Source of the DNA: Xiphophorus maculatus
Taxonomy: Eukaryota; Chordata; Actinopteri; Cyprinodontiformes; Poeciliidae
Assembly: GCF_002775205.1 (NCBI RefSeq)
Contig: NC_036447.1
Coordinates: 7,490,501 to 7,554,500, forward strand
Length of the DNA stretch: 64,000 nt
Direction: 5' to 3'
Of this stretch, positions 22,259 to 63,029 are shown piece after piece. Each line of letters starts with the position of its first letter. Positions within the stretch are counted from its first letter, which is position 1. The notes below the pieces were generated by a model. That model made no database searches. It saw only the letters and a list, made by a program, of their open reading frames with translations, and was not told the origin of the DNA. A program made the position numbers and the translations under genes.

Positions 22259-22294
<36 letters not shown>

Positions 22295-38800: not shown

Positions 38801-38820
38801 TCAGGGTAAAACATCCTTCT

Positions 38821-38827
38821 TATATAA
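38821..38827 (+). promoter_or_regulatory. TATA box of deaminase-like gene A
   Basis: TATATAA lies about 30 bp upstream of a plausible transcription start near 38850. Two short non-coding exons follow: about 38850-38895 (donor CAG|GTAGAA) and 39114-39135 (acceptor CTAACAG, donor AAG|GTAGGT). The next acceptor ends directly at the ATG at 39943. Genes C and D have the same arrangement, which supports the reading. Confidence 0.6.
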
Positions 38828-39199
38828 ATGCAGTTGTAGTTTCAGCTTCTTTAGTGGAAACACAGAGGGAAGGAAAGAGCCGACAGAACCATCAGGTAGA
38901 AATTTGTTTTTGAAGATTTTTAACAGATCACCACTGCTTGGTTTCAGACTAAGCTGGACTTCGGTCCTGTTTTGTTGCAAAATGAAATATCTAAAAGTAT
39001 TTAAAAAGAAGTAAGAGACTTACTTTGACTATTAGAATCTCTACTTTCTTCTCAACATTCATGACAGGTAAAATTAGTAATAAGTGTTTTATGTGTTTTT
39101 TGTCTTCTAACAGATCAACACCTGAGACAACAAAGGTAGGTTTTTCCGTTTGGTCCTCCAAACATGAGCAGGTCTTGTTACTTATATGAATTACTGTCC

Positions 39200-39450
39200 T
39201 TGAAATACCAAATTTCCACTTAACTTCATATTTTGGTATGTCTGATGATGTAATTTTAAAATATTTAATTATTGATGTTTTGATTAGTTACTCAGTACTT
39301 GAGTAGACTTTTACCAAATACTTTTGTACCCTTATTTGAGTAATTTCTTGGACGGCTACTTTTTACTTTTTGTTGATTAAAAATATGTGAAAGTAGCGCT
39401 ACTTTTACTTGAGTACAATTTTTGGGTACTCTGCCCACCTCTGGTGATAT
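39200..39450. mobile_element. MITE fragment (TTGAGTAATTTCTTGGACGG family)
   Basis: Shares TTTGAGTAATTTCTTGGACGG and GCTACTTTTTACTTTT with about 50870-51075, and CTACTTTTACTTGAGTACA with 22650. Lies in a 5' UTR intron of gene A. Confidence 0.65.
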
Positions 39451-39942
39451 ATACAGTCGTTACATATTACAGAACGTAAATAGCCATACCTGAGCTGAGA
39501 TTGTGTTAATATGTGATTGAAACTGTGAAAAACAGATGATTTAAAATGGATTGAAAACCTTAAAACTTTGCGTTGTCTTTTTTAACTTTTTTCACACTTT
39601 AGGTAGTTATTCAAACTCTGACATTTTCAAATAAATATATCTCCAAATAAAACAAAAGTTATGAGACCTAGTATTTGATATGTTTTTCAGTGAGTGATTT
39701 AATATCTTAAGTAAAATACTGTTACGCAGAAACTGTTAACTTCAGACAGAGTTAGTATTTAGCATAAATTAGATCCCACAAGCTTGGAAAAATACCAAAA
39801 CCAAATGTTTGGAGAGTCCTGTAAGTGGATGCAAAATAAGATTTAACATCAGCCATAGATATTCTAAGCGTACATGAAGCAAATACATTTATTTCAGATA
39901 AATGTTCACTTTTGTCTAGTAAAAACACTGAACTGTTTTCAG

Positions 39943-41594
39943 ATGGGTTGCCTGTTCTTGATGGTGCTTTCACTGACTGTGTTGCTGCTTGATGCAAACA
40001 ATTTCCCACCTGTAAACATGGGCCGACTACAATATGCAGTTTCACAAATCTTGAATCGGTAAGTTGAACTTCTTTATTTTTGTAGTAAAACTGGCTGTCA
40101 ATTGATTCCAGTATTTAACCGGATATATTTAATCATGTTTCTAAAATATGTCTGTGTTCTTCCTCAGCTACAGACCAAGCTATGAGGTTGGAGATCAAAG
40201 GTGCGCAAGTTACAACATTCATGATTTTTGAGTTCATCTAAACAATAGAATAGTTTGGAACTTACACAAAAAGAAGTGACATTTAATCTGTCATTTTTAT
40301 TTCAAATAATAAAAAACCTAAGTTACTTTTGACAGGTCTTTAATTAGTATAACATTTTTTGCTTTTTGTTTATTGAGTTATTAAAAATAATAAGTTGCAG
40401 AGTAGAAGTAACGTCAAAATTTTTGTTTTCATGTGTTTTAGGTTTTTGTTCTGGTTAAATAATTAGTACAGTAATGTTTGTGTGGAAAAATAATAAAACT
40501 GAAGTATGGAGTCTTTCGAAACAAAATTGTCCTAAAAAAAAAAAGGGTTAGATGACACCAAACTGAAGACTTTTATCATCCAGTTTTTGGTAGGAAGAGA
40601 GAAAAAAAAAGAGATAAACGATAAATCACGGAAATGGAAGTAATTGAGTTTGTTTGAATTTATCATGCCATTAATTGATTTATTGATTATTGTGACCAAA
40701 TATCAATCTACAGTACATAGATTGTTCATAAAGATTTTTTTGATCTGCTTTTTTTTCACATTTACAGTGTGTTTTAGTAAAATACACTAAAAAAATAGAG
40801 TTGGTAAATTTGTGAATTTATTCCTGACATCGTTACATCTGATGTTTTACACACTAATCAGATTTCCATCTCATTTGACTGTCTATTTTTGTGTTCAGTA
40901 AATTTTTCTTATTTCTTTTGACAGGAAACGCCCCATGTTCAGTCTGGTTGCAAGAATCCCGTTCAACAGTGATACTAATCAGTATGATATCAACCAAGTC
41001 ACTGATGATGCCAATAATGTAAAGGACACCATCGTAGGTTGTGAGGTTTACACTGGAACAAATATACTGGCAGCCACAGTTTTAAGATGGCCTGATGTTG
41101 TGTATCAGTGTCCGGATGGACGTGTTCAGTGGCCTATAAGAAGCCAGGCTAGAACTTGGGCGGACGCGTACTGTCAGAATACGATGTCATTTAATGAAGG
41201 CAGAGCTGAGCATGCAGAGTATCGTATTCTGCAGAACTTGGATACTTGGCTCAACAATCAAAATATGGGACAAGACCTGTTGCTTTTTTACGCCTATGCT
41301 TCTCCATGTACTAGAACATGTACAAACAGAGACAGTCCCTATAATATTCTGAGTCCCTTGACAGGCTATGTAGAGTTTAACATAGTGTTTGTGTTTTCTA
41401 TAGTGCACCAGCCTAGAAATGCCATTGTATCTCCAGACGTTCTACAGGATGCTCTGAAGAACCTGGGGGGAACAATCGGTCTGGACCGCATATTTCGTTG
41501 TGATAGAGTGAATGGTAGGATAAAATGTGTAAACTGTAAAGATAATGAAAATGTTGCTGGGTGGTGTTATGATGATAATCAACCGCCAGCCTAA
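39943..41594 (+). CDS. Gene A: secreted AID/APOBEC-like (SNAD-type) deaminase
   Basis: Exons 39943-40058, 40168-40200 (33-nt microexon) and 40925-41594, all phase 2 junctions, total 272 residues. The ATG abuts the splice acceptor (TTTTCAG|ATG). Residues 1 to ~18 are a signal peptide (MGCLFLMVLSLTVLLL). The core has HAE at 146-148 and SPC-TRT-C with cysteines 178 and 182: one His and two Cys to bind zinc and a Glu for proton transfer, as in cytidine deaminases. A hydrophobic strand (DLLLFYAYA) precedes the PCxxxC, as the fold requires. The C-terminus has four Cys (FRC, KCVNC, GWC); two more occur upstream (VGCEVY, QCPDG), fitting disulfides in a secreted protein. Known: fish encode secreted AID/APOBEC-like deaminases (SNADs) thought to act in immunity. 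The SNAD assignment is from motif and architecture, not a search; substrate unknown. Alternative: another bacterial-type deaminase clade captured by fish. Confidence 0.82.
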
Positions 41595-42042
41595 AAAGGC
41601 AGGGGGTAATCAGTAGATGGGGCTCCCATGATTCATTACATGAACTTTAGCTTTGCAGGAACATGAGGTTTATTTTTAAAATAATATCTAAGTATTTGTT
41701 AGTCAGCTGGGTCCATGTCCAGTCTAGCTTCATTTGAATCTAACCCAAGCTATTAGAAATTAACTGATTTCACTGACCAAGAAATTTTGATGAAAACTGC
41801 ATTTTATATTTCCTCAGGTCGTTTTTGTGTGATATTAAAGTTTAATTTATGATCTGAAATATTAAATGTGCATTAAAAAGAAAAAAAAGAATTTTCTGAG
41901 AAAAAAAACTTTTCTACAGTGCTTTGTATGTAAATTTTTGTGAGATTTGATTGCAGAGTTATAATCAGAATTTATTTTTATTGATCCATAATATATTCAC
42001 AATAATGATGTACTTAATGGACTTCAATTTTTCTTCTGTCAT

Positions 42043-42048
42043 AATAAA
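42043..42048 (+). terminator. Poly(A) signal of gene A
   Basis: AATAAA about 450 nt after the stop, within ATAATAAAGCTTTGCTCAGC, which is conserved at the matching position of gene B (47357). Confidence 0.6.
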
Positions 42049-42574
42049 GCTTTGCTCAGCATTCACACTGTTTTATATTTATTTTTGTTCTTTTTGAAAC
42101 AAGTTTCTCATTGTATCACAACAAAGTAAAAATTTGCAAAGTTTTGACCAAGAAGAAAAAAACATCAAACACATTTGACAAAAAAAAAACTACATCTATT
42201 TTTAAAAAAGCGAAGATCTTTATTAACTTTACAAAAATACTTCCTGTAGTGCTACTGATTGCTACAGGAGGCATTCATAAATCAGTTTTCTGCCTTTTAC
42301 TTTCGTTCCCTTTTACACCAAAAGTATTAAAACTTTTGCCAGGTTGTCGTTCCACTGTTGGTGCTCTAACACATCTACGGTTATGCCTATCGCATGGCAG
42401 CTCCTCTCTGGGGAAGAGAGAAAACGTCCCTCCCTGCCCAACAAACACACTGCTAATATATTTTTAATAACAATTGTTCCACCCAAAACAGAAAATGGTT
42501 AAAAAAATAATTAAAGCTGCAGTTTTTAACTTCAATTACTTATAAAAAAAACCCAAACATATTTGTCAAAACTA

Positions 42575-43035
42575 TCACAATGTTGTGACAGTACGATATA
42601 AGAAAGATAATCTGTGGAAAAAAAGGAGCTCCTCTGCCTTCTTCTATGGGCTTTATGTCATCTATAGAAATACACTGCTCTGTTTAAAACAACCAATCGG
42701 AACCAGGAGGAGGGTCTTAGCACTGTCAACTGCCCTTGTGTACGTGCCACTAACACCCTCCATTTTACCCGAATGCTCAGGCTATTATCATAGCTACTGA
42801 TAATGGCAGATAAACAGTTTTACTGGAATGGTAGATTTTTCTCTCCATCATTACCACATTGAGGAGCAAGTACACAAGATTGATTGACAGTGCTAAGACC
42901 CTCCTCCTGGCTCTGATAGGTTGTTTTTGACCAGGAGCGGTGCTTTTCTTCAGATGACAATAGTAGAGCTGGAAGGAGGTGCAAGAGCTCAATCTTAGAT
43001 GATCTGTCTCATATTTTACTGTCACAACATTTTGG
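42575..43035. mobile_element. Foldback (inverted-repeat) element
   Basis: Left arm (about 42580-42760) and right arm (about 42840-43030) are diverged reverse complements. Each contains CACAA..TTGTGACAGTA at its outer end and GGAGGAGGGTCTTAGCACTG (left) or its complement (right) inside. The two arms therefore give related ORFs on opposite strands (both with RRRVLALS), which are not genes. A partial outer-end match occurs near 49935-49960. Confidence 0.75.
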
Positions 43036-43059
43036 CACTTTAAACAAATATTTTAAAAA

Positions 43060-44846
43060 GACAACTATTTTTGTAAAGCTTTAAAGGTTACAGATTTTAA
43101 AACAATAGTCATCTAAACAGTAAAGAAAGGTATAAAAAGATGGCTTAGGTCTGATAAATTGATTCTTCACTTTCAAAGAAAAACAAATGCTTACACTTTT
43201 TAAAATCTTCAGAGTAATTTCCTTACAGACATTGGGTGAGCAATTGAAATGCTACTATGGTGGTTATCCTGTTGTCACTATCTAATTTATGTTTTTCTTC
43301 TTCTGAACAAACCAATTATTATTTAAAAATCTATTATCAGAAGACTGATTCTATCTTGATTACGATTTAGCCAACACAATCCAACAGGCTTTCTGTGTGC
43401 TAAAAAGATAGGAAGAAGAGTTTATCACAATCTCCCGAGAAAGAAATGCAGACAAACTCGTAAAACTGGTGCACTCACATCTGACGTTTCCTTAAAGCGT
43501 TGTTTCCTCTGATTATGTTCACTTTATCAACACCTTTACTCCTGACACAAAGAGAAAACATCAGAAGCGTCTTTACAACACAAGAAGGTAAAGATTTTTG
43601 TTACGAACATTTCTGTTAAGATGTTATTTAAGTCTTACTTCACTATAAAAGCCAATTCACTGGACATCCGAATATCTAAAATTGCCCAAATTAACAAATT
43701 ATTTTAATGTTAAATTTGCACTACAGCCCCCAAAAGCCTAGTTTTTAAAGATATTTCACTTTAGAATTAAGATTTTCATTTTTATGTCATACCATGGACG
43801 ACTGTAGGGGATACAGTATTTTTGTATGTAGAAAAAATACCTTAGCATTACTTCCTTGATACGTAACATTTATCATTGCTGTACCTGATGAAGCAGTGCA
43901 GTTAGTTGTTTTGTGTATTTTTAATTGTTTAGATACTTGTAATGTGATGAAGATTCTGTCTCTATAGCGTTTTCTTCAGATTTGGATTTATTTTATCAAG
44001 ACTAAAATCTTCAGATGAAGCACATTTCAAAAATCAGCTAACATAAGAAATACAAAAAACAAATTTTAAATGAAAATTTTATCTGCTATGGAAAAAAACC
44101 TGCCACATCTAACTATGGACTTTAAAAACTGGTAGCAACATTCTTGGCGTCAACAAATGTAAACAAAACAAAAAAACCTAGCAACCTGTTTGCATTGCTG
44201 TAGATGAATGTTTCTTGATCTATGCCTTGAAAGTTGTTTCAAAAACAAAGTTGTTCTTACTTTCTTGATTTTTCTGCTTTTTAAAACTTTTTTTTATTTC
44301 ACCAACTGAAATATTTTCAAGCTGACATTAAAGTCCACCCAAATAATCCCATTATAATAATGTGAAAAAGCGTAAATGTGAATCTTGCCCCATCTCTTGC
44401 CATTGATCTCCTGTAATTACAATTTTAAATACCGTACTTGTCATCACAATTTTAGTAACAGAACATCTCTCCAGAGTACACTGTCATTGGAAACATGATT
44501 CTTCAGTCTGATTGTCTTATCACACAATGAAACAAGGACCTGTTGTTCTGAACCACTGACATGTTGATGGATACAGATATTTAATTCTGAGAGATTAACT
44601 AAGAATTTTTAGGAAGATACTGGCCTTTGAGAAATGCAGTTTTGCAAATGTTTTGAGATGCAAAATGGTAACTTCAGACACTGTCAGCCCTCTTCCCCCA
44701 TTAAACTCTCTGTACAGTGAATCCACTAAGTGAACGTGATGTTAAACTTTAATGTTAAAATAAGACATTTAAATCAAAGGTAAACATAAATGTTCACTTT
44801 TGTCTAGTAAAAATACTGAACTGAAAATGAACTGAACTGTTTTCAG
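43060..44846. other. Spacer between genes A and B with possible 5' UTR of B
   Basis: No ORF of note. A candidate non-coding exon of gene B ends at 43587 (CAAGAAG|GTAAAG); it contains ATCAACACCT, also present in the second UTR exon of gene A. About 44786-44846 is conserved with the region just upstream of gene A's ATG (ATGTTCACTTTTGTCTAGTA). Confidence 0.4.
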
Positions 44847-46790
44847 ATGGGTCTCCTGTCCATCATGGTGCTTTCACTGACTGTGTTGCTGCTTGCTGCA
44901 AACAGTTTCCCGCCTGCAGTGGACGAGACCCAACTAAAAAATCTAGTTTCACAAGTCTTGAATCTGTAAGTTTAACTTCTTTGTTTTCTGTAGGGAAACT
45001 GGATGTAGACTGATCTCTTATGTTTCACTGGGTGCAATTAAAAATGTTTCTAAAACATGTCTGTGTTCTTCCTCAGCTACAGACCAACATACGAGTTCAA
45101 TAATTCTATGTAAGTTACAGCATGCTTGATTTTTAATATACAAACAACCGAATACTTTGGAGCTGCAAGAAAAGAGGGGACATTTAATGTGTAGTTTACA
45201 TTTTAAATAGGAAATTACAGAAATAACAAAACTTACTTTTTATGATAATTTTTAATTCTTAATTAAGTTATTAAGCATAGTAGGCTGTAGCATAGAATCA
45301 GTGTCAATACTTTTAGTTTTTATGTGTTTCTGCTTTTCATTCTGATTAATTACTAAAGCAATCTGTGTATGAAAAATAATAAAACTCAATAGATAATCAA
45401 TTCCCATTGATACTTAAACATCAACTGTTAAACTGTAATTTATTTGTCTGGTTTGGCATTGGACTGGACCAAACATCGATCTACATGGACTGTTTATAAC
45501 ATTTTTTTGATCTTTAATTTATTCTTTTTACATTTACAGTGAAATTTATTACAGTACTTCCGATTGTTTACACACATACTGGTACTTGAGTCACAACGAC
45601 CACAACATGCACAAAGCCCCTGAAGCAATTCTGCCACAAGCATAATTCCTGCTTTACTCTGAAATTGCAGTTTTAAAACACACATTTTTCAAAACACTGC
45701 ACACAGTTTTCTGCATTTGGGACAATTTTCATGAGGAAAATCTATTGTTTCTAAATTTCTAAGTCAATTGCCCTTAACTTAGAATTATTAAGGGCATGTA
45801 GGCCTTCTGGACCTACTTGGGCGCACAAGTCCGCTCATGATGCGCCCCAATAGACGCCTCCCTGGGTGTTTGTACAGATCGACACTGTAAAATACACTAT
45901 AGGTAAGATACAAATACCAAGCTTGGTCAAGTAGTGAATTTATTCCTCACATCTTTCTGTCCTATGTCTGATATTTTGCACACTAATCAGGTTTCCATAT
46001 CATTTGATTGTCTGTTTTTGAACTGTGTTCAGTAATTTTTTCTGTTATTTCTTTTAACAGGAAAACCCCCATGTTCAGTGTGGTTGCGAGAATCCCGTTC
46101 AACAGTGAAACTAATCAGTATGATATCAGCCAAGTCACTGATGATGCCAATAATGTAAAGGACACCATCGTAGGTTGTGACGTTTACAATGGAACAAATA
46201 TACTGGCAGCCACAGTTTTAAGATGGCCTGATGTTGTGGCTCAGTGTCCGGATGGACGTGATCAGTGGACTATAAGCAGCCAGGCTAGAACTTGGGCGGA
46301 CGCGTACCGTCAGAATACGAGGTCATTTAATAAAGGCACAGCTGTGCATGCAGAGTATCGTACTCTTCAGAACTTGCGTACTTGGCTCAACAATCACAAT
46401 ATAGGACAAGACCTGTTGCTTATTTATGTCTATGCTTCTCCATGTGCTAAGAGATGTACAAACAGAGACAATAAGGGTAATATTCTGAAACTCTTAACAG
46501 ACTACGTAGAGTTTAACCTAGTGTTTGTGTTTTCTAAAGTATTCAAGCCTAGAAATACCATTATACCTCCAGAGGATCTACAGGATGCTCTGAAGAACCT
46601 GGGGGGAACAATTGGTCTGCAACGCATATTTCGTTGTGATGAAGTGAATGGTAGGATAAAATGTGTAAACTGTAGTAATAATACTGGAAATATTACTGGG
46701 TGGTGTTATGATGATAATCAACAGCCTGGCAAAAAAAGGCAAGGGGTAAACAGTAGGTGGGGCTCCCATGATTCATTACATGAACTTTAG
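44847..46790 (+). CDS. Gene B: secreted AID/APOBEC-like (SNAD-type) deaminase, tandem copy of A
   Basis: Exons 44847-44965, 45077-45109 (33 nt) and 46061-46790, phases as in gene A, total 293 residues. Signal peptide about 1-18 (MGLLSIMVLSLTVLLLAANS). Zinc-site motifs HAE at 147-149 and SPC-AKR-C with cysteines 179 and 183; the four C-terminal cysteines are kept. Relative to A, the protein has about 20 extra C-terminal residues (after DDNQQPG) because an indel removes the stop that ends A. Coding exon 3 differs from A mostly by amino-acid changes, many reversing charge, while 46758-46925 matches 41618-41785 with one mismatch. That stretch is coding in B for its first third but 3' UTR in A. 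Predicted function as for A: zinc-dependent deaminase secreted from the cell; substrate unknown. Active-site motifs are intact, so both copies may be catalytic. Confidence 0.82.
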
Positions 46791-47356
46791 CTTTACAGGA
46801 ACATGAGGTTTATTTTTAAAATAATATCTAAGTATTTGTTAGTCAGCTGGGTCCATGTCCAGTCTAGCTTCATTTGAATCTAACCCAAGCTATTAGAAAT
46901 TAACTGATTTCACTGACCAAGAAATGATGATGAAAACTGCATTTTATATTTCCTCAGGCTGTGTTTGTGTGATATTAAAGTTGGTTTCATAATCTGAAAT
47001 ATTAAATGTGAATTAAAAAGAAATAAATGAAATCTATGATTTAAAAAAAAACGTTTCTGCTGTACTTTATATGTATACTTTTCTAACATTTGATGTCCTT
47101 AATTGTAAATAATTAAATAATTACTTAATTATTATTGTATTAGTAATTACTGTACTTAAATAATTACTTAAATTAAAATGTACACATTTGTTTGGTTTTA
47201 AAAAGCTGTTGGTATAAAATAACCCAGACTATTAAATGTATTCATTTCTTGAAATTGCAGAGTTACTATCAGATTTTATTTTATTGATTCATAATATATT
47301 CACAATAATGATGTATTTACTGGACTTTATTTTTTATGCCTTTATTTTCCCTTCAG

Positions 47357-47362
47357 AATAAA
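47357..47362 (+). terminator. Poly(A) signal of gene B
   Basis: AATAAA in CAGAATAAAGCTTTGCTCAGC, homologous to the signal of gene A. Confidence 0.6.
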
Positions 47363-47877
47363 GCTTTGCTCAGCATTGAGTCTGTTTTATGTTTATTTCT
47401 GTTCTCAGGGAACAACTTCCTGACTTTATCATAATAAAGTAAAATTTTGCAAAGTTTTGACCAAGAAGAAAAACCATTAAGCACATTTGACAAAAAAAAA
47501 TCTATTTAAGAAATAGATTTTAAGAAAGGCTGAGGTCTTTATTATCTTTATGAAAATAAATGATGTGACTGAAGTGAAGTCAGTTTGTCAGTGTGCTTCT
47601 TGTGCTACTGATTTGCTAAAATTAAAAAATGTTTGGATTATTTCTCATGAATCTGCACTCAGCATCCCATCAGGACAGAAATAACTAGAAATGTAGACAT
47701 TTTTGCAAATTTATTAAAAAAGAAAAACTGAAATACTGCACATGGTCACGTGATATTTTAGTTTTTGTTGCGTTTTTTTTGTGAAAAAATTTCTACACTT
47801 CTTTTTTTCTGTAAAGAAACAGTAAAACAGTAAAACTAAGACGTATGATATCAGCATAGCCTATGTCTTATTCTCAT

Positions 47878-49313
47878 TAGGGCTGAAACGATTCATCGAG
47901 TACCTCGAGTAACTCGATTACAAAAAATCCTCGAGGAAATTTATCTGCCTCGAAGCTTCGCTAAATTTATTGTATTGTAATAAGCAATGCTGTTAAATAC
48001 GCAGCACACTGGTCTAGCCGGAGGGTTTTTGTGTTGCACAACGCTACCACTTCCGTTAGCGCCTGGAGCACATGTGCTAAGTTTGTAGCTATGGAGGGAA
48101 CCGGAGAATGCTCAGAAGGAGAACCCCGAAAGCGACAAAAAATGTCAAAAGTTTGGGAACATTTTAGGCTAAACAGAAAGGACAACACAGCGCAATGCAT
48201 CCACTGCAAAGCAGAATTGGCGTACCACAACAGCACGACATCAATGTTGCAGCATCTGAAGAGAAAACACCCGCTACATGCATCCAACTCGTACACGGTT
48301 GCCAACAGGTAACGTTTATGTTCTCTTTGCTAACTACGTTGTGTGATAATCTGCCATGTTATAGATGTAAATTGAGGCACATTATTTTGCTAACGTTACA
48401 TCTAAACATAGCGGTTACTTAACCGGGTGTAGTGTAAATTGTATGTGAGGGTGGAACTGAGAGAAATTATGCAGGACTTAATGTAAGTTTGTTAATAAAA
48501 ATACGCAGCAACAGATTACAGGCATAAGCTGAAAAGCATTTATTTATTGGTGTCTTTCCATCCTGAAAAGTTACAGTCTTTTCTTCTCGCTACTGTTATG
48601 TATGAATTAGAAATTTTTGATTAATATTTTTTGTAGTAATTCTATATTTGTTTATACCTAAGCAATCAAGAATAAATAATAGCATCGTTTTAATAAAAAT
48701 AGCAACATTTTTGCATTTTATCATGACTAGTTAAGGCTGCAGAACTCTGTACAAACTCAAACCTTTACATTTTGAGTAAGTTTATTTTTTTCCTAATATA
48801 TAGATTACATTCTGTTTTCCAATACATAAAAAAACATTTCACTGCATTTAGATTTTTCTGTGATGGTTAAAAATAATGCTTTTAATTAAAGCATCCTCAA
48901 AATTGCGTTATCAATAAAATGTTAGCATTAAATGAGTTGTTTACTTAGTTCTTTTACGTGTATGTGTATTACTCACTGAAGATAAATACATAAACTAAAA
49001 GCTGGAGTGTAGACATTTTTATAAGCATATTTGTGAGCCTGCCACTTTATTATTTGAATATAATTTAATATCTTAGTATAACTTTTCTTCAGGTTAAAGC
49101 AAACTACTGTTACAAGTAAACTTTCTAAACTACAAACATTTAACTGTTAGGGATGCTCAAAAAGGAGATATTGGACTGATCTGGACTAACTGGTGTTATT
49201 GCAGATTTGCCAATAGTTTATTTTATAAATTTTTTCTATCCGATTACTCGATTAATCGTAAGAATAATCGATAGATTACTCGATTACTAAAATATTCGTT
49301 TACAACAGCCCTA
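47878..49313 (+). mobile_element. Non-autonomous hAT transposon with perfect 8-bp target duplication
   Basis: Ends TAGGGCTG and CAGCCCTA, with sub-terminal CGAGTA/ACTCGATTA motifs on both sides. It is flanked by identical ATTCTCAT copies (47870-47877 and 49314-49321). The 1436-bp element keeps only the first transposase exon (BED finger); the catalytic part is absent, so it depends on another copy to move. Confidence 0.92.
48091..48308 (+). pseudogene. hAT transposase remnant: BED zinc-finger exon
   Basis: Open from MEGTGECSEG. It reads WEHFRLNRKDNTAQCIHC, then a TSMLQHLKRKH end: the aromatic start, CxxC and H-x4-H pattern of a BED-type DNA-binding finger. The frame stops just past a donor-like CAACAG|GTAACG at 48309, consistent with an original exon whose downstream exons were deleted. 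Not a host gene as far as can be seen. Confidence 0.8.
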
Positions 49314-49499
49314 ATTCTCATTATTAATTATTAATGAGAAATAATTATTTGTCCTTATTTATGAGAAATAATGAAGAATTATTTCTCATTATTCACGAGA
49401 AATAATATTAACTTTTTTGATTTTAGCAAATGGCTGCAATGAAACAAAGAGTGAAAAACTTAAATAGGTCTGAATACTTTCCGTTCCCACTGTACCTGT

Positions 49500-50865: not shown

Positions 50866-50869
50866 AATT

Positions 50870-51075: not shown

Positions 51076-51779
51076 ATTTAAATGTTTTGTGGGTGAAGGT
51101 TAAGGGGTCATAAAGTTCAATAAATGTCTTTTTAAAACCGAAAGACAGAAGAGGAGCAAAAATATATACACAACAGAGAGTAAGGAACATACTTATCAAC
51201 TGACAGCTGTAGGAACTGATTCTGTTTGTCTATTCTTTGCAGGTGCAAAGCAACAACTCTGGTAAATAACCTTCAGAGTTTTAAAATGTTCAATCATCCT
51301 CTTCAGAAAATTATTCAGTTTAATTTCAATTCAGTTTTTACTTTCAATCTATCATCAAATCTTGCTTAGTTTACCTCAACTTCTTTGGTAATCATTCAAA
51401 AACAAACATGATGAATGCAGATAAAAGATCTTTGCGAAAATGTGTTTTGTACCACAGCTTTCTTGAAGGTCATTACCTCATGACGAAGCATTTCACAATT
51501 CATATAGAGGGAAACTGCAGCAACATGCCGTTCTCCATGCAGAGACAAAAGAGGAAATGAACATGTTGCAAAAGCAGCAACTTAATTAAAAGTCATGCAT
51601 GAATTTTCTACATATCATCCAACTGTCAACATAAAACCTACTCTGATGTTGAAATATATATTAGAAACTTTAAATTAAAATATGTTTCTGCTAAAGAAGT
51701 ATACACTCCAAAACAAGTTTTTAGTTTTTATTTGACTGATGATAACAAAACTAAATGCAATCAAATTATTATTATTTTT

Positions 51780-51872
51780 TTGTTTTTGGGCATGTGCACC
51801 GACTGATGGCACCCTTTGAATTTCGTTGTCCTTGTGACAATGACAATAAAGATTTATCTTATCTTATCTTAT
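51780..51872 (+). mobile_element. LINE 3' tail
   Basis: TTTGAATTTCGTTGTCCTTG followed by GACAATGACAATAAAGAT and a (TCTTA)n tail: a common fish retroelement 3' end. About 90 bp remain. Confidence 0.6.
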
Positions 51873-53213: not shown

Positions 53214-53220
53214 TATAAAA
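53214..53220 (+). promoter_or_regulatory. TATA box of gene C
   Basis: TATAAAA about 30 bp upstream of the likely start near 53245. Non-coding exon 1 ends at 53297 (AAAG|GTAGAA). Non-coding exon 2 is 53404-53444 (TTTTAG acceptor, GAAG|GTGTAA donor). The coding exon then starts at the ATG right after TTTGCTCAG. Confidence 0.65.
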
Positions 53221-53646
53221 TAAAGCTCTTCAATGTGCCACGCTCATCAACAAGTGGACAAGTGGAGCAGAAAACCTCTGAACTGCATCTGATAAAGGTA
53301 GAACATTTAATAAAAACACTTCTTTTCACTCTTTAAATTAAAACTGGTTACTGTTAAAAATAAACAAAACAGAGGGTAAATCTTATTTGTTTTAATCTTT
53401 TAGGGCAGCTGGACCAGCGAATTCAGCTGGCTGCAGAAAGGAAGGTGTAATAATTTTTAAAATATTTCTTTATTATGTAATAAAACAAAAAGCCTATCTG
53501 TAAAATAAGCATCTACAATCTCAAATTAATTGTCAGTTTCTTACAATGCAATACTAAAATATAAATTTAAAACATTTCTTTTGCTACAGTGGTTAGCTTG
53601 TTATGTGAATTCAGATCATTTACTTTGTTATTTTTTCTTTGCTCAG

Positions 53647-56061
53647 ATGAAAGGCCTGTTCTGGGTGACTGTGGTCTTCTTCCTGTCTGTTGAAAACACC
53701 TCGGCTGCTGTAGACCAGAAATGGCTTACAGATATTGTGCAAACCATCAAGAATAAGTGAGTAATTGAGTTGCTTTGTTTTACCTATAAGCTGCAGAAGT
53801 ACAGAAAGTGAAGCATAGAAAACCATGGCCTTGAACTGATATGAAAATGTGTCAAATGAAACACATTAATGAAATTTGTAGAACCAGATACAGAACATCC
53901 ACTCCTCATCCTCATGATCCACTTTAGAAAATACTCAAGCTGTGAGAAAAAGCTTGAGATCCAGACGTAGAAAGGGACAAATGAATTTGATGCATTTTGT
54001 TATGATGTAAAGCACTTTGAAATGCCTTGCTGCTGAAATGTGCTATACAAATAAAATTTGATTGATTGATTGATTGATTATCTTTAAAGACTTGTTTGTA
54101 ATATGGCTCTTTTTGTTTTGTACAAACTCCAAAAAGGGGCACATTCCCCAGCTCACCAATGACTTTTTACCAATGGCCCCTTACACATAATACTTTAGGA
54201 AACACTTGCATCCTTTGTTAAAATAACTCTCTATAGTGACAACTGACTTGTGCTCTACAGGGTTCAGAGTAAGCAGATATGATCCATAATTTTTTTAACA
54301 TTTCTTTCATTATTAAGACTGTAGTTTTAATATCAAAGACTCAGCCTGATGCTTCACTTGGATTCTACAGTTTTGCTAAAGTGAAGCCTCTGCAGAACAA
54401 CTGAAGGCTCATTTTAAACCGTTTTATAACCCGAAGTAAAAACAACCTTTTCTCTGCCATTACCTCCGGTTTTTGGTTTATAATCCACAAATACCAGTAT
54501 GAAAAACCAGTGGACCTAGATGCCAAAGGAGAAATACTGTGTGCTATATTAGTATTAGTATGTTATATAAAAGACAAATGTCTTGTTGTTAACTACTGTT
54601 CAGAAACCATTTGCTGCATTTTTGTTGTTGGTTGTGCAGGAGGCTCTGCTTCTGCTTTACAAAGATGTGCAGTCATATTATTGTGCATGTGTTTGCAACC
54701 ATTTTCACATGCAAGTGTAAACCTTGAGCAGCAGCTTATTTGGATTTAAAGTGACAAGAGGCCCTAAACCAACTCATTCTGAAAGGAGCTGAAAATAGGC
54801 AGAACTGATCAGGCTAAAATCTCATTATCCAACAATGATTTTGTGCAATAAATTTCATGAACATGTTTTGTTTGGCCCATAGACCTATCCTAACCTGTTC
54901 AAGGACAGGTCTTTTGTAAAAACCTTCTATCTTATTCCAATGTTTTACACTAAAACTAATACTGACAGCTGTGAAATGTTTTCTTGTGACAGGTATCAGT
55001 TGGGTGACACTTCCAGTTGGGCTGTAAATATACCACAGAACCAAGATCCAAGCCATCTGATGGAAGTTCTGCAGGAAGACCCACCAGATGCAGTGAAAAT
55101 AGCAGTTTCAAAGAGTGACGTGTATCAAGGCAAAAGAATGACAGTATCAACACAGTCAGTTGCAATACCCCATGTGTTAGAGAAAATAAAAGTCAGCCAA
55201 ACAGGAAACCAGGGCAACACCATCATAATCTATTCTGAAAAATACCAAAATATAAATGAGAATGGCATTGCTGCCAACATTAACAAAATCATTCATAGTT
55301 GGGGACGTTACGCCTTTGTATTTTCCAAAGTAGTTGATGTTGCTGATGCTGGGATACCTGCCAGGGCTGAGCTCTTTAAGCAGCAGGAACTTTCCAAATT
55401 TGGGCTAGAAAATATATTTCGTTGTTATGAACCTGGTGGTTCTTTCCAGTGCACAAGCTGCGGCTCTGTTGAAAATGTTGCTCCTTCTTGTCTTGTAAAC
55501 ACACCACCATCAAATGACGTCACAGAGTTGGAAAAACGCAGATTTAAAGAAGCTAGAGGAGGTGGAAGAAAGAGGAGAGGAGGAAGACGTAGGAAAGGTG
55601 GCGAGGTGCAGGGAGGAGGAAGACGTAGGAAAGGTGGCAAGGTGAAGGGAGGAGGAAGACGTAGGAAAGGTGGCAAGGTGAAGGGAGGAGGAAGACGTAG
55701 GAAAGGTGGCAAGGTGCAGGGAGGAGGAAGACGTAGGAAAGGTGGCAAGGTGAAGGGAGGAGGAAGACGTAGGAAAGGTGGCAAGGTGAAGGGAGGAGGA
55801 AGACGTAGGAAAGGTGGCAAGGTGAAGGGAGGCGGAAGACGTAGGAAAGGTGGCAAGGTGAAGGGAGGAGGAAGACGTAGGAAAGGTGGCAAGGTGAAGG
55901 GAGGAGGAAGACGTAGGAAAGGTGGGGAGGTGAAGAGAGGAGGAAGGCGTAGGAAAGGTGGGGAGGTGAAGGGAGGAGGAGGAAGACATTCAGGAGGCAA
56001 TGTGGGAACAGTAAGAACATGTAAAATGCGTAAGAAGGTGGGAGGAGGAAGTAGTATTTAA
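53647..56061 (+). CDS. Gene C: secreted deaminase-like pseudoenzyme with polycationic repeat tail
   Basis: Exons 53647-53756 and 54993-56061 (phase 2), 392 residues. Signal peptide about 1-20 (MKGLFWVTVVFFLSV), then AVDQKWLTDIV, which aligns with gene B's AVDETQLKNLV. Residues ~38-205 align with the deaminase core of A/B (YQLGD; YAFVFSKV; NIFRCY; four Cys as RC, QC-TSC, PSC). The zinc site is gone: PHVLE stands where A/B have HAE, and no PCxxxC follows the matching strand, so it should not deaminate. From about residue 222 the protein is a basic tail: 11 copies of RRRKGGKVKGGG (36-bp DNA repeat), strongly Arg/Lys/Gly. The tail could bind nucleic acid, heparan sulfate or bacterial surfaces; this is inference. 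The antisense ORFs over the tail are artefacts. Unlike A/B, no 33-nt microexon is present. Confidence 0.8.
53930..54085. mobile_element. Retroelement 3' end fragment with (TTGA)n tail
   Basis: GTAAAGCACTTTGAAATGCC, then TGCTGAAATGTGCTATACAA and ATAAAATTTGATTGATTGAT: a common fish repeat end. Lies in the intron of gene C. Confidence 0.6.
54530..54905. mobile_element. Non-autonomous TIR element, family copy 3 (truncated)
   Basis: Shares TTGTTGGTTGTGCAGGAGGC, AAAATAGGCAGAACTGA and CCTATCCTAACCTGTTCAAGG with the copies at 12895 and 19097. In the intron of gene C, ending about 90 bp before its main exon. Confidence 0.65.
55585..55980 (+). repeat. 36-bp coding tandem array in gene C
   Basis: 11 copies of a 36-bp unit (AGACGTAGGAAAGGTGGCAA, then GGTGAAGGGAGGAGGA). 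Interior copies are almost identical; end copies differ (GAGGTGCAG, GAGGTGAAG), which fits expansion by unequal exchange. Length is a multiple of three so the frame is kept. Confidence 0.95.
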
Positions 56062-56181
56062 GGTGGCAATGTGGGAAAAGGAAGAAGACGTGCCAAAGGA
56101 GGCAAGAGGGAAAGAGGAGGAAGACGTGCAAAAGGTGGCAGGTCAGGAGGAAAAAGAGGAAGATGTGGAAAAATGTCATAG
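56062..56181 (+). other. In-frame continuation of the basic tail beyond gene C's stop
   Basis: After the TAA at 56059-56061 the same frame stays open for 39 codons to TAG at 56179-56181 and still encodes Arg/Lys/Gly-rich sequence (GKGRRRAKGG, RERGGRRAKGG, KRGRCGKMS). The tail appears to have once been longer and been cut by a nonsense change. Readthrough or an allele without the stop are alternatives. Confidence 0.75.
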
Positions 56182-56283
56182 GGTAAAAGGAAAAGGTCAT
56201 ATGAAATATGGTAGGGTAAAAACAGGCCAAATATCTAAAACCAGAAAATAAGAACAAAAAGCTGTCATGGGTTTTGAGGATAC

Positions 56284-56289
56284 AATAAA
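56284..56289 (+). terminator. Poly(A) signal of gene C
   Basis: AATAAA in ATACAATAAAGCAGC about 220 nt after the stop codon. Confidence 0.55.
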
Positions 56290-56744
56290 GCAGCTTTGAA
56301 ACCAACAAAGTATTGACCATTCTTAATTTTTAAAATCTAATACATTCAAGTAAAAAAGTTATTTTCAATAAAATAATGTTGCCATATATGCCTATTTTTT
56401 AAAAAGCAATTGAACATTGTGTTACAATTGAACATTGTAACACATTGTTTGCCTGCATTAAAAGTAAAAAAATAAACTTAAAAATGTGTTGTTTGTGGTT
56501 TTGTACAGAAAACTACTTAGCCTTGCTTTTGTACATGTAAACAGTTTTAAAATGTGTGTAAAACCTAACAGAAACTGTTCACTGCAATAAGAAAAGCAAC
56601 TATTTTGTAATTCTATTGCTTTAGAATGAATAGCATTGGTGTTGTCTTGTCACCTGGGTTTTAGCTAGTCACAGCCATAAAAAGTACCAGGGACTAATGT
56701 ACTATAGATCAAATTCCTGTGGGAAGAAGTCAGGTGCAGTATGA

Positions 56745-57665
56745 GGTTGGTGGCAATAGCAGGGACCAATGCATGCTAATTCTGGGCATTGCAAAAAGGT
56801 TTTTGAGTCAAAGGTTTTGGGTGCTATCTTGCTAGATACCATGTATCTAGCAAGAAAGACACGTAAGTTGTGCTTCTGGGGGCAGTAATGTTTGTCTGGA
56901 GAAAAATGAATCTACCAGGAAGGTTGTGATAAGGAGGAACAGCTTCCCCAAATTGAATCTGAGCTTTGCTGGCATGGGATGCCCATAGCAGACGTGTGTT
57001 CGAGCACAAGGTGGTTCAAACGTGTATTTTGTATCCTGTCATTGGTCTACTGGTCGATTTTGTAATCATCAGACTTGTGGTATTAGTTCATCTAAGGACC
57101 GAGCTATCAACTGAACACCACCTGTTAGTGAGTTTCATCAACTGGCAGGGAGGCTATGGGCAGACCTGGGTCTTGTTTGTGAAAACAACGAGTAGTGGAA
57201 GTTATCAAGCTAAAGAAGGAAGTCTTCAGGGCTTCGCTGGGGATTCCTGAAACAGCTGGCAGGTATGGTCAGACGACCTGCAGCTTCTGTGGTCAAGGAG
57301 GCAAGAATGTAGGAATATGAGGAATTTAGAAAAACTTTTGTTTGACAAACAAGGAAATTCTGTAACTTAGAAAGAAAAATAGGTTTGGTTTTTTGTTGGG
57401 GCTGAAGCCAATGAGATGACAGAAGTCACTGAGGGAATCAAAACAAATTACCGGCACCTAGTTGGTAAAAGACATGCTGAAGGCTCTGGACATTGTGGGG
57501 TTGTTGGTGTTGACCTGCCCTTGCAGTGTTGCATGTGGGACCAGGACAACATTTTCAGTGGTGATGGTCCAAACTTTCAAGAAAGGTATCAGAACAGTGT
57601 GCTCCAACAATTCTCATGCAGGGCAGTGTGCCTTGAGGACCAGGGTTGGGAAATACTGCATTACA
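56745..57665 (+). mobile_element. Decayed LINE: endonuclease end and RT start
   Basis: Translations in shifting frames read RRVFEHKVVQTCILYPVIG, then LLVDFVII and RTELSTEHHLLVSFINWQG, the end of a LINE endonuclease domain. Further on come TEVTEGIK, MLKALDIVGLLVLTC and FKKGIRTVCSN, which resemble the segment leading into reverse transcriptase. Stops and frameshifts throughout; not functional. Confidence 0.75.
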
Positions 57666-57699
57666 CCACTTCTGCTACATTTAACATATAAACAGGGAC

Positions 57700-58920
57700 A
57701 TTAGCCTTTCTTGCACGTGTTGTACTTGTACTTAACAAACTGCACTACACGCACTTCATTAAGTATTCGGGTGTTGCCTTAATTTGAATCTCTTGAAGTA
57801 AGTTGATTGTGATATCTCCGCTTCTGTTTTCTGGAAGTTGTGAACGATATTATTCACAGTTGTTTTCAAGGGATATTCTTTACATCCTGACGTCATGCAT
57901 AACTTGAATGACACAATGACCCGCAATGAAAATAAATGTTCAAGTTGAGATTCTGAGCCGTTTTTTGGAACCACCACAGCAGTATTGCAAGCCGGGTCAA
58001 ACTAAGTGTTGCACAAAATCAATTTCTTTCTCCAGCCTTGCCCTTCACATATTGTAATCCTTCAAAAAATTATCTTGTATATTTTTAATGTAGTTGTAAA
58101 GCTAATCATTTAAAGCAGCATTCATATAAGAATGTTTTTTGACATCTAGTATGAGGGTGATTTTATGTTAAATCTGTTGATTCTACAACACACATTTAGA
58201 GTTAATTGAGTAATTTTTAATCAGCATGGAGATTAAACTGCTTTTCTAAACAACCAACATGCACAAATGCAGAAGTTTAATGCAGCCGTTGTTGCATTTT
58301 AGGACATATTTTGCTGCATCACATGCATTCTGACTGATATTAGTAAAACAAGCGATGTGCAGTAATACTGAAGGTTGTGATCAACAATATGTTGATATGG
58401 ACAATATCATGTCAAAGCTGATCTGATGGATTGAGATCTGCTGACTAGAAAGACCACTGAAGTATAATAATCCTATTGATATATTCCATGCTTTAAAACT
58501 TCAAACACATAGCAGATCTGTGAAAATGTCGGGTAATAATATATGCAAACTTATGACCATTAACACTTTGGTGCAAGGACGCCTTTATTGAATGATTTGC
58601 AAATGTATTGCTTTAAGTGAAATACTTTTACACCTTTTTAAGTTCCTCTTCCCTGAGTTAAGTGGTACAAAATACAAATAATTGAAAGAGGATTATTCAT
58701 CGTGCATATATTCTTATTACACCAAATATACCAAGACCCTGAGAAGGAGTATGATAAAAACTTTTTTTTCTTGCTAAACACAAGTAAGATATTTTTGAGC
58801 AATCCATTATTTTAGCACAATTCTAGTAAATGCCTCTATCAATGCTTTAGCCGATTCAAGTGTGATAGGTTTGGCCAAATTTGCAGGCGTTGTTCAATGA
58901 GGTGTTCATTTCCTGTTCAT
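57700..58920. other. Intergenic, no gene
   Basis: AT-rich unique-looking sequence between the LINE relic and the promoter of gene D. Nothing supported. Confidence 0.5.
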
Positions 58921-58923
58921 ACA

Positions 58924-58933
58924 TATAATAAAA
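58924..58933 (+). promoter_or_regulatory. TATA box of gene D
   Basis: TATAATAAAA upstream of non-coding exon 1 (about 58950-59019, GAGAG|GTAACA). Non-coding exon 2 is 59314-59352 (CATCAG acceptor, AGGAAG|GTAAAA donor). Coding then starts at the ATG right after CATTCAG. Exon 2 resembles that of gene C (GGCAG..CAGCTGG / GGAGCTGGCAG and a GGAAG end). Confidence 0.6.
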
Positions 58934-59585
58934 AACGCTTCCTGTCCGAGCATCACTATAGAAGAACTGGCAATAGCACCCAGAAAAAGTGGACGACTCC
59001 TTGTGCATCTAAACGAGAGGTAACAATAAAAAAAAATAACTGTTTTATTATTATAACAATGTAACAATTTCTTGACTAAAAATGCACAACAGCTTGGATT
59101 ATGTTTGAGTTGCATACTCATTATTTGTGAAAAAATTAGAAACTTTCAATTGCAAAAAAGTAGTTTAAAATGTCATACATTTTTAACCAATAACTCAATT
59201 TGCCATTAAATAAATAATCTCTACTACAGCTAAATGTGGTTTAACAGGAGTAATACAATATTTTTTTAAAATTTTGAACTATAAAACCTTGTATTTTTAT
59301 TTCATGTCATCAGACTTGGAGCTGGCAGATTCCTCTGGAACTCAGCAGGAAGGTAAAACTATCAATTTATTTATATTTTCAAATTTATTTGATCAGGGAC
59401 AAGACATCCCTGGTCAAGATTTTTAAAGGTTAACCTCTAAAACTGATGAGACAAAGAAACCTATTTAAAACTAACGGTAAAATGATACTTGTATTTACAT
59501 ATCAAAGTATAATCATTGCATCACTTGTCATGAACTTGGTTACATGATTTTATTATTTTCTTAATGTTGGATTTGATCCATTCAG

Positions 59586-62500
59586 ATGGCTGTCCTGTGC
59601 TGGGTGGTTCTGGTTCTGGCCGTCTTCCTGTCTCCTCAATGCAGTCTAGCCGCTGTAGACGAGGCCTGGCTAACCGACATTATACAAAATCTCAAAAATG
59701 AGTAAGTTTTAAATCAGTTTTCATTGTTTCTTGTGTCTTTTATCCTCAAGAATATGGGATTGCATCAACTTATTTACAGGTTATTTGTAATTCAATTTGT
59801 TGAATTAAAAAACCAGAGCAGTAGCGATGCAGAGCCAACTTAGATGCTTGGATTTTGCAAGATCGCTGCAAAAAAGGCTACAGAGTGCACTGAAAAGCAT
59901 CATAAATTATTATTTTAGGGAAAGTTAAAATTATATAGAGTGACTCTCTCAATTGAAAAACAAAAATAATAAAACTAATATAGAAAAAGGGTCAGTGATT
60001 GCGTTTCTATCAACTTTTTTTTAACTTGCATTTTGAAATATTGCATTAGAAAAGGAAATGTCAAAATCCAAAATAACTTGCTCAATTTCACAAACAAATT
60101 TTTTACACTCCCTTTTAGTTTTTTCTGGCTTTTCCAAAACAGAGTTAATGTGCTAAAAGATAGACAGAAACACATATGCTGAATAAGTTCTGACATAACG
60201 TACTTTATGATTCAGGCAAAAGAGTTGCAGTTCTTTTGTACAGATTTTGTGTAAGAGCAACAATTTAGCCATAAAAGGCCAGAAGGTGACAGAACATTAT
60301 GCTGAGTTGGATACGTTCTGCACTTAAAATCACAACAATCATTTTTAATGGTTTATTATCTGTCTTGCTTTGTCCACACTCCATTTAACTTCAAAGAAGA
60401 TAGTAATTAAATCACCTACAGTGTTTTGGAGAATCGTGGCTTTAGTCACACTCTGGCCAAATGCCACTGCTCTGATGCCACTGTACTGCACCTGAATCAA
60501 ATGAGTTGCTTACAAAAACCTGCTGACATGCTAAGGAGGTAATTAAGCCTTGTGATTGAGATGTTGAAGCAGGGATGCATCCAAAGTTGTAGGACAGAGG
60601 CACTGGAAATGTAGACCCCCGCTCTGGATGATACACCTCATTAAGATTTTAAGATGTTACTTTAATTGACGTTTCCGCCACCTGGTGGCGTCACGTGGTA
60701 TTTCAGAACTTTCATGGACTTATAATTTTTTATTTTTTTAGCAAGTTTGGGCAGAGATTTGATTAACACAGGAATCTGGGAAGGATCAGCTTTATTATTA
60801 TTTTTTTTTATTTAGCTCATTTCTTACAATAAACAACCACTTAATTTAGTCCTTGCTATACCATTGTTGATATAATTATGTTTTAAAAAATACAAAGTGC
60901 TTTTTAAAACACTTGATTTTGTTTGATAAATATTTTTGATACTTTTATTAATCTTTTTCATGCTAAAAGTAAGTATTTTGAAATAACTGTGTTATGTGCA
61001 TCAGTTTATCAGGGTCATTAAATTTCTGCCCAAAATTAAAAATTGTTGAGATCAAACTCTGAAATTTTCTGTAAAAAAAAAAAAAAAAAGGGAGAATATT
61101 ACAAAAAAATAGTTTTGAAACTCAAAAATTTCTAAAAAATTTCAGTTTTTCAAACAAATTTTTGACTTCTGGAACTGTACAATGATCCTTGTCATACATT
61201 ATAGCTTTGCTATGTAGAAATGACAAAAAAAACTCATCAATGGTAGTTATTGTAATGATAATAAACAATTTAAAAGCAATATAAGCAAATTCATTTTAAT
61301 ATAATGATAACTTGTAGTTTGCAGGTATTTGCTGCAATAAAATGCAATTGTCAGACTGACTCAAGGTTTTTTTATCTTGTCAAATTATCAGCTGATATGA
61401 ACTGGAATATTGATCATTTATGTGTGTCTTTTTGATAGGTATGAATTGGGTGACAGCTACAGTCTGGTTGTCAACCTCCCTGTGAACCAAGACATAAGCA
61501 GTCTTGCAGAAGTTCTTAAGGATGACCCTGCAGATGCAGTGAAACAAGCTATTTCAACGGGTCAAGGGTACCAAGGCACGAGGGTTGTTGCAGCTGCCCA
61601 GTCTGGAGCACTGGCCCATGTTCTAGAGAAAATACAGCCCCTCATAAAAAGCAGTGATGGCAACGTCCTCATCGTCTACTCTGAAGGCTACCCTGATGCA
61701 AATGGCATTGACAACAAGATCAGTAACATTGTTCAGAACTGGAAGAGTTATGCTTTTGTGTTTTCTAAAGTAGCTGATGTTGCTGATGCTGACACGCTTG
61801 CGAGGGCTGCAATGTTCAAAGAGCAAGAGGTTTCAAAGTTTGGGCTTGAAAACATATTCCGTTGTTATGAGCAAAGCGATTCTTTTCAGTGCACAAACTG
61901 CAAAGCAGGCGATAATGTTGCACCATCCTGCGTTGCAGATACAATGCAATCAGGTGCCAACGAAGAGACAGCAGTAGGTGCCACAGAGCCGCCTACAGGA
62001 AGTGATGAAGGCACAATTTCAGGTTTAAATAACGAGTCTGACATAGGCACAATCGCTGGCACTGACCAAGACTATGAGGGTGGAGGGATGATTGATGTCA
62101 TGGGTGGACAGGAACCAAGAAAGGGCAAAACGAGGCAAAAGGGGAAGAGAGGTGGAGAGGTGAAAGAAGGAGGTAAACGTGGAAAAGGAGGCAAGATGAG
62201 AAAATCACGTAGACGTGGAGAAGGAAGCAAGATGAGAAAATCACGTAGACGTGGGAAAAGAGGCAAGATGAGAAAATCACGTAGACGTGGAAAAGGAGGG
62301 AAGATGAGAAAATCACGTAGACGTGGAAAAGGAGGGAAGATGAGAAAATCACGTGGACGTGGGAAACGAGGCAAGATGAGAAAATCACGTAGACGTGGGA
62401 AAGGAGGCAAGATGAGAAAATCACGTAGACGTGGAAAAGGAGGCAAGATGAGAAAATCACGTAGACGTGGGAAAGGAGGCAAGATGAGAAAATCACGTAG

Positions 62501-62720
62501 ACGTGGAAAAGGAGGCAAGATGAGAAAATCACGTAGACGTGGAAAAGGAGGGAAGATGAGAAAATCACGTAGACGTGGGAAAGGAGGCAAGATGAGAAAA
62601 TCACGTAGACGTGGAAAAGGAGGCAAGATGAGAAAATCACGTAGACGTGGGAAAGGAGGCAAGATGAGAAAATCACGTAGACGTAGAGGTGGGAGGCGTA
62701 GAAGCAAGAGAAGGGGGTAG
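59586..62720 (+). CDS. Gene D: secreted deaminase-like pseudoenzyme with acidic linker and polycationic tail
   Basis: Exons 59586-59701 and 61439-62720 (phase 2), 465 residues. Signal peptide about 1-22 (MAVLCWVVLVLAVFLSPQ), then AVDEAWLTDIIQ. The core (~40-203) parallels gene C: YELGD, GALAHVLEKI, VLIVYSEGY, YAFVFSKVADVADAD, NIFRCYE and the Cys pattern RC, QC-TNC, PSC. The HAE and PCxxxC sites of genes A/B are not present; only a histidine (AHVLE) remains near the first. Residues ~204-258 form an acidic Gly/Thr/Glu/Asp linker absent from C. From about 263 the chain is basic, with 14 copies of RRRGKGGKMRKS (36-bp unit). Acidic linker plus basic tail gives a strongly two-part charge, perhaps allowing self-association or reversible masking; this is inference. 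The tail recalls histone H4/H2A-like GKGGK motifs, but there is no histone fold. Confidence 0.8.
62170..62690 (+). repeat. 36-bp coding tandem array in gene D
   Basis: 14 copies of a 36-bp unit (AAGATGAGAAAATCACGTAG, then ACGTGGAAAAGGAGGC). Variants are mainly GGAAAA/GGGAAA and GGC/GGG. The first three copies and the sixth carry amino-acid changes (EGS, KRG, RGR). Same period as gene C's array but a different unit. Confidence 0.95.
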
Positions 62721-62859
62721 ATAGCTAACAGTGCATAACAATCTGCTTTGCCAAATTTTGAGCAACAAAAACATTTAACATTTGTTTAAAAAATCAGGTA
62801 CTTTGCAAAAGTGTTTTTACTTCATTTAATCTGATGAAACCATTGGCTTTGTCTGGCCA

Positions 62860-62865
62860 AATAAA
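62860..62865 (+). terminator. Candidate poly(A) signal of gene D
   Basis: AATAAA about 140 nt after the stop. An ATTAAA at about 62984 is an alternative. Confidence 0.45.
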
Positions 62866-63029
62866 CATAATTCATTTATCTGTATTGACATGATTTATTT
62901 GAAAGGATGCTGTCGTGTTTTGCTTTTCTATATAACAGAATTCCAACTATTTATGTGGAACCTTGATATTTTTGCTACTTTTGATTAAAGTTTGCTTTAG
63001 CATTTTAATGTCTCTTTCTGTCCATCATA

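Follow-up and report, generated by a model that had tools for sequence, protein, structure and literature searches.

A 64,000-nucleotide stretch of the Xiphophorus maculatus genome (contig NC_036447.1, positions 7,490,501 to 7,554,500; "the window") contains a tandem array of four plus-strand genes, here called A, B, C and D. Their sequences identify A and B as SNAD1-type deaminases and C and D as SNAD1-derived proteins in which the core is kept, the catalytic site is lost and a polycationic repeat tail has been added. The SNAD family is secreted and related to the enzymes responsible for mutations in antibody genes and viruses. We favor, at a probability of about 0.5, the explanation that C and D are secreted pseudo-deaminase scaffolds whose tails would bind extracellular polyanions, and that they may serve in innate-immune trapping or opsonising.

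Gene models and SNAD1 identity

The genes and their parts are as follows (window coordinates; P numbers denote proteins of our collection).

39943-40058/40168-40200/40925-41594, plus strand: gene A, SNAD1 deaminase, 272 aa, with HAE and SPCTRTC
44847-44965/45077-45109/46061-46790, plus strand: gene B (LOC111608598), SNAD1 deaminase, 293 aa, with HAE and SPCAKRC
53647-53756, plus strand: gene C exon 1, signal peptide (judged by eye) and N-terminal helix
54993-56061, plus strand: gene C exon 2 (LOC111608597), pseudo-deaminase core (ending at about 55500) and cationic tail
55577-55980, plus strand: gene C tail, 36-bp tandem array encoding 12-residue units of approximately GGRRRKGGKVKG (Tandem Repeats Finder, TRF, and codon table)
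58897-59019, plus strand: probable upstream exon of gene D (tblastn of P0002 on the window)
59586-59701, plus strand: gene D exon 1, signal peptide (judged by eye) and N-terminal helix
61439-62720, plus strand: gene D exon 2 (LOC111608595), pseudo-deaminase core, acidic spacer and cationic tail
62173-62684, plus strand: gene D tail, 36-bp tandem array encoding 12-residue units of approximately KMRKSRRRGKGG (TRF and codon table)

The original prediction, made from the DNA letters, described a cluster of four secreted deaminase-fold proteins, two apparently active and two pseudoenzymes, and both the gene models and the aligned motifs agree with it. The coding sequence is divided into three exons in A and B and into two in C and D, and all six introns are GT-AG and in phase 2. 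The gene A exon is 94% identical to X. couchianus P0033, the product of gene B is identical to P0035 (LOC111608598), and the 392-aa product of gene C differs from P0021 (LOC111608597) by a single residue. The 465-aa product of gene D is the exact C-terminal portion of the 519-aa P0002 (LOC111608595); the N-terminal extension of this public model, encoded at 58897-59019, is more likely part of the 5' untranslated region of D. The N-termini of C and D are hydrophobic, lie on their own exon and resemble those of their relatives (signal judged by eye). Another platyfish protein, P0001 (LOC111608596 isoform X2), has the core of D with fewer tail repeats and an RGNGG unit that is absent from D; it is probably a further tandem copy beyond the window, or an allele.

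The Pfam SNAD1 profile (PF18744) matches A (4e-16) and B (5e-14) above its cut-off, and A also matches SNAD2 (6e-6); together with the HAE and PCxxxC motifs, this bears out the earlier assignment of both to the SNAD deaminases. The matches of C (0.07) and D (7e-4) are weak, cover only the C-terminal half and fall short of the 25-bit gathering cut-off (13.5 bits for the C exon or 17.5 for the whole P0021, and 20 for D); nevertheless, PF18744 is listed for P0002 (gene D) in the database's precomputed Pfam annotation. Profile-profile comparison (HMM-HMM), which had been proposed as a check, placed the C and D cores in SNAD1 with a probability of 100, in alignments that span the core, and in no unrelated family. 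The predicted order of helices and strands in C is the same as in B and is that of a deaminase; thus, the cores are not unlike those of A and B. The top PDB rows for C are APOBEC3 structures with weak scores, and a sequence search of solved structures returned one weak match per profile, VP6 for the dead (HAE-less) profile (E 0.99) and APOBEC3G for the intact one (E 0.17).

As had been predicted, C and D retain the core strands YAFVFSKV and NIFRCY and the C-terminal cysteine pattern, in which C181, C190, C193 and C203 are invariant across 31 proteins (alignment A2). They share with SNAD1 the putative signal exon, the phase-2 intron, the helix and strand order, the VFVFSK and IFRC strands and the C-terminal cysteine cluster, A and B being ordinary members of the family. 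Unlike SNAD1, they are without the His, the Glu and both zinc-site Cys, lie below the Pfam cut-off and have gained the polycationic repeat tail, preceded in D by a clear acidic spacer; unlike A and B, they also have no long segment separating strand 2 from the HAE helix.

Loss of the zinc site and ancestry of the clade

We collected 96 proteins, of which 88 entered a tally of alignment columns; P0062, P0066, P0080, P0081, P0082, P0083 and P0084 were left out as fragments or fused models, and P0047 for want of a clean core end. The rows were split by the presence of HAE (40 with, 48 without). The Pro and both Cys of the second motif are also present in all 40 HAE-bearing rows. Among the 48 HAE-less rows the catalytic Glu never occurs, its column holding 29 Leu, 15 Val, 2 Ile, 1 Met and 1 gap, and the zinc-column His occurs once (P0075), a contrast partly built in by sorting on HAE. 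In C the HAE positions read V-A-I and in D G-A-L, and no Cys stands where PCxxxC aligns. The predicted loss of the Glu and both Cys therefore stands for C and D, which have lost the His as well, but does not extend to the whole clade, in which the two Cys columns are kept in 30 and 27 of 48 rows and a PCxxxC-type motif in 26; sea bass P0009, for example, has SPCGPTC. Such survival indicates that the Cys pair was lost after the Glu, in a stepwise decay, and the pair is gone in some lineages only, poeciliids and cichlids included. The active-site helix itself is retained (HAESRVVDEL of P0085 aligns with EAVSRVLENI of P0017). The dead proteins also have few residues between strand 2 and this helix; intact SNAD1s such as P0040 and P0085 do too, and thus shortness alone is no sign of inactivation. 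We infer that nucleic-acid editing has been lost in C and D.

Removal of nine further near-copies or long branches left a tree of 79 rows, in which a branch supported at 100/100 separates all 43 HAE-less rows from the rest. In a tree of 35 chosen rows, they join intact SNAD1s from Epinephelus, Thunnus and flatfishes (100/99), apart from the clade of B. In the original prediction, C and D had been converted to pseudoenzymes; they are not conversions of A and B. Approximately unbiased (AU) tests on the 35 rows rejected a grouping with B's relatives P0035, P0036 and P0040 (p-AU 0.0025, a value weakened, like the other AU values, by groups having been named after the first tree was inspected). On this sequence evidence, C and D descend from a SNAD1 lineage other than that of A and B, related to those of Epinephelus, Thunnus and flatfishes. 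Neither a single clade of dead and flatfish sequences (p-AU 0.256) nor one of dead and tail-less Epinephelus and Thunnus SNAD1s (p-AU 0.377) was rejected.

Within the 79-row tree, C and D diverge inside the dead clade, so that the whole of their divergence postdates the loss of catalysis. Their cores differ by dS 1.12 and dN 0.28, a ratio of 0.25 over 181 codons, and their signal parts have a dN/dS of 1.4 (20 codons). The C-D core has been under purifying selection after catalysis was lost. Between A and B (40925-41594 against 46061-46790), dN is 0.154 and dS 0.09, a ratio of 1.7 over 243 codons that is not significant (Fisher p 0.059) and suggests either diversifying selection or conversion between intact copies. 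PMC9207270 notes that the loops of SNAD1 evolve at a high rate.

Cationic tails and their possible roles

The Arg/Lys/Gly repeat tails reported earlier for C and D are confirmed as in-frame arrays of 36-bp units, with 11.2 copies in C and 14.2 in D (TRF). In the reading frame, they carry net charges of +70 (C) and +99 (D) with no internal stop. Read in the +1 frame, the tails of C and D would have charges of -18 and -16, respectively, and be interrupted by 11 and 19 stops; in the +2 frame, the charges would be +41 and +30 and the stops would number 17 and 23. The tails are predicted to be disordered and lie behind an acidic core. Most relatives have the core, an acidic Gly-rich spacer and then the K/R/G repeat tail; in P0021 (gene C), the spacer is just 7 residues long and uncharged on balance. 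Across the 48 HAE-less rows the roughly mature core has a net charge of -19 to 0.

A survey of other fishes, suggested with the original prediction, recovered an HAE-less clade in percomorphs, and 41 of its 48 sequences have a tail with a charge of at least +20. The seven without a clear tail are P0013, P0015, P0023, P0063, P0064, P0070 and P0079, several of which seem to result from frame shifts, alternative isoforms or partial gene models. In P0023, P0064, P0070 and P0079, the core is intact and the tail appears, by eye, to have been frame-shifted to acidic or mixed repeats; these may be real alleles or gene-model errors. Such apparent frame shifts (Cottoperca P0023, Micropterus P0064, Caranx P0070 and P0079), along with the instability of repeat tails, would be expected if C and D were decaying genes and their tails neutral minisatellite expansions. 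This is very improbable, given the C-D core ratio of 0.25 and the retention of a cationic tail behind the core in 41 of 48 relatives.

The best repeat length is 12 in C, D and the cichlid P0072, 14 in Cyclopterus P0029, 18 in Cebidichthys P0025 and 20 in Trematomus P0067, and several of the 19 tails examined are only weakly periodic. Of the 41 tails, 34 contain the short kernel G[GS][KR][VMLI][RK], where shuffling gives an expectation of 6.7. This kernel was picked after inspection and the rows are related by descent, so the excess suggests, without proving, that the dead-clade tails share one ancestor. The kernel occurs in one of four flatfish-clade tails and is absent from P0088.

The tail is not peculiar to the stripped copies: among the 40 HAE-bearing rows, 6 end in a strongly cationic tail (flatfish P0087, P0090, P0091 and P0094, P0092 of the flatfish clade, and Anoplopoma P0088). 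As in C and D, the SNAD1 core of these proteins leads into a K/R/G-rich tail; unlike C and D, they keep HAE and PCxxxC. The AU test rejected a common group uniting P0088 with the dead and flatfish clades (p-AU 2e-7), so the tail of P0088, at least, has a separate history. Taken with the AU tests, the tails on intact rows indicate that gain of the cationic tail and loss of catalysis were separate events.

Under the explanation we favor, the folded domain of C and D would be a stable scaffold held by the four C-terminal cysteines, presumably secreted and disulfide-bonded, and the K/R/G tail would bind extracellular polyanions with high avidity. Candidate targets are extracellular or viral nucleic acid and bacterial surface polymers, and the proteins may thereby act as innate-immune trapping or opsonising factors. 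The charge and length of the tail would count for more than its exact sequence, which would explain the turnover of repeat units between lineages.

We also considered that C and D might be precursors: cleavage at the many basic sites of the tail would release short cationic antimicrobial peptides, and until then the acidic core and spacer would serve as a carrier that silences the tail. The charge distribution fits, with cores of -2 (C) and -11 (D) before tails of +70 and +99, as does the number of potential cleavage sites (the tail of D holds 19 RXXR and 50 dibasic positions, that of C 3 and 41), and the tandem 12-residue units look like a poly-peptide precursor. This is nonetheless unlikely: the constraint on the core (ratio 0.25) exceeds what a carrier would need, and repeat lengths of 12, 13, 14, 18, 20 and 24 among the 19 tails, several weakly periodic, leave no fixed peptide.

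Alternatively, the tail could be a retention anchor on host polyanions, such as heparan sulfate, mucins or egg and skin coats, with the core in a separate receptor or structural role. Consistent with this, the tail of D carries 30 basic sites of the BBXB type, and anchoring would make sense for the intact flatfish deaminases, which are also tailed. We consider it rather unlikely, as BBXB sites are expected in any K/R-rich repeat, C has only one, and the XBBBXXBX site, as scored, occurs in neither protein.

Distribution, cluster history and relation to known systems

All three homology searches depended on shared 5-residue words, the last scoring the best 7,994 word-sharing candidates, and the percomorph range of the 48 HAE-less sequences is the range reached in this way. 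The named species come from many families, including the Poeciliidae, Fundulidae, Cyprinodontidae, Cichlidae, Moronidae, Serranidae, Percidae, Carangidae, Channidae, Labridae, Scombridae, Sciaenidae, Apogonidae and notothenioids. Placement in Percomorphaceae was checked for Xiphophorus and Sphaeramia (dead) and Hippoglossus (intact, tailed). Among viral contigs, 46 stretches fit a pattern and none was confirmed as a relative.

Intact and dead SNAD1s have separate records in four species (Xiphophorus maculatus, Gambusia affinis, Channa argus and Micropterus salmoides), and in each of the four the two lie on contigs of equal size; a second dead record of Channa argus is on a contig of different size. 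By eye, a dead unit is fused with another SNAD1-like unit in Nibea P0083, Thunnus P0066 and Dissostichus P0080. The equal-sized contigs and fused models point to a tandem arrangement of intact and dead SNAD1s that is probably old. P0010 and P0071 are encoded without interruption across the intron position on short contigs (1,661 and 1,170 bases), which suggests that they derive from spliced transcripts.

The cluster had also been proposed to be a co-regulated system, which the upstream regions do not support: the roughly 2 kb before each of A to D share nothing at E 1e-3 save 38 bp between A and B. From their neighborhood, a partnership of A and B with C and D is possible. One form of it would have the tail first evolve as a nucleic-acid or cell-entry module for delivering or tethering an active SNAD1, and then be kept by the dead clade as a decoy or competitor of the active SNAD1s in the cluster. 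The tailed intact flatfish SNAD1s on the same side of the 100/99 branch as the dead clade, the joint clade at p-AU 0.256 and the equal-sized contigs in four of four species are in line with this, and delivery of SNADs into virally infected cells has been proposed in PMC9207270. It is quite unlikely, since a grouping of the dead clade with Epinephelus and Thunnus in place of the flatfishes fits too (p-AU 0.377), the kernel is present in just one of four flatfish-clade tails, and no promoter common to A to D was found in the approximately 2 kb compared.

Other features of the window include a BED zinc-finger open frame between B and C (47965-48312, plus strand; Pfam 1e-13), probably a transposon piece, and a 95% identity between the 3' flank of D (63113-63305) and a piece of an A intron (40310-40500), which may reflect a dispersed repeat or be a trace left by duplication in the cluster. 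Upstream of the cluster are cadherin-repeat exons (16747-23666, minus strand; the Pfam Cadherin profile matches 22611-23666 with 5e-49 and 16747-17214 with 3e-12) and a 540-aa open frame of ALEQ/NTTLE-type coiled-coil repeats (6497-8119, minus strand), whose Pfam matches, DUF3950 excepted, are short or below cut-off. It adjoins a repetitive stretch (5058-6238) with several frames open on both strands.

Deaminase-fold proteins without catalysis include ADAT3/Tad3, APOBEC2, APOBEC4 and the N-terminal domains of APOBEC3. As C and D would, these use the fold for binding or scaffolding rather than catalysis; they are intracellular, whereas C and D are presumably secreted. None of them is known to have a polycationic repeat tail of the secreted kind. 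Eosinophil major basic protein, cathelicidins and histone-derived peptides are secreted, as C and D presumably are, and likewise combine an acidic with a strongly basic part, and as far as we know no sequence relation to these cationic defence proteins is to be expected.

Dead or tailed SNADs are not described among the literature matches listed, a scope outside which lies the 2018 paper of Krishnan et al. that reportedly named SNADs. Gene identifiers gave no mention for six genes and, for six others, only PMC11004436, through an icefish SNAD1-like gene. As far as its text was available, that 2024 SNAD1 paper mentions the icefish SNAD1-like protein, calls SNAD biochemistry and catalytic activity wholly unknown and reports the zinc motif in all analysed sequences except two; its main text contains no word beginning with "inactive," "arginine," "lysine" or "repeat." Neither "inactive" nor "tail" occurs in the accessible text of PMC13402138. 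A "Cell wall protein IFF6-like" transcript appears, with no identifier attached, in that of PMC10138087 (salmon cells), which contains neither "SNAD" nor "deaminase," and it cannot be linked to the clade.

Overall, we tentatively suggest, at less than even odds, that C and D represent an undescribed class of vertebrate innate effector across percomorphs, in which a secreted AID/APOBEC fold with catalysis erased carries a fast-turnover polycationic repeat tail and acts alongside the intact SNAD1s of its cluster. The fold being kept with catalysis erased, part of the value of the SNAD family need not rest on editing, and the recurrent cationic tail hints at what its non-editing role may be. If this is true, the occurrence of tails on more than one SNAD1 lineage, dead or intact, would make extracellular polyanion capture a main job of the entire SNAD1 family, and editing dispensable.

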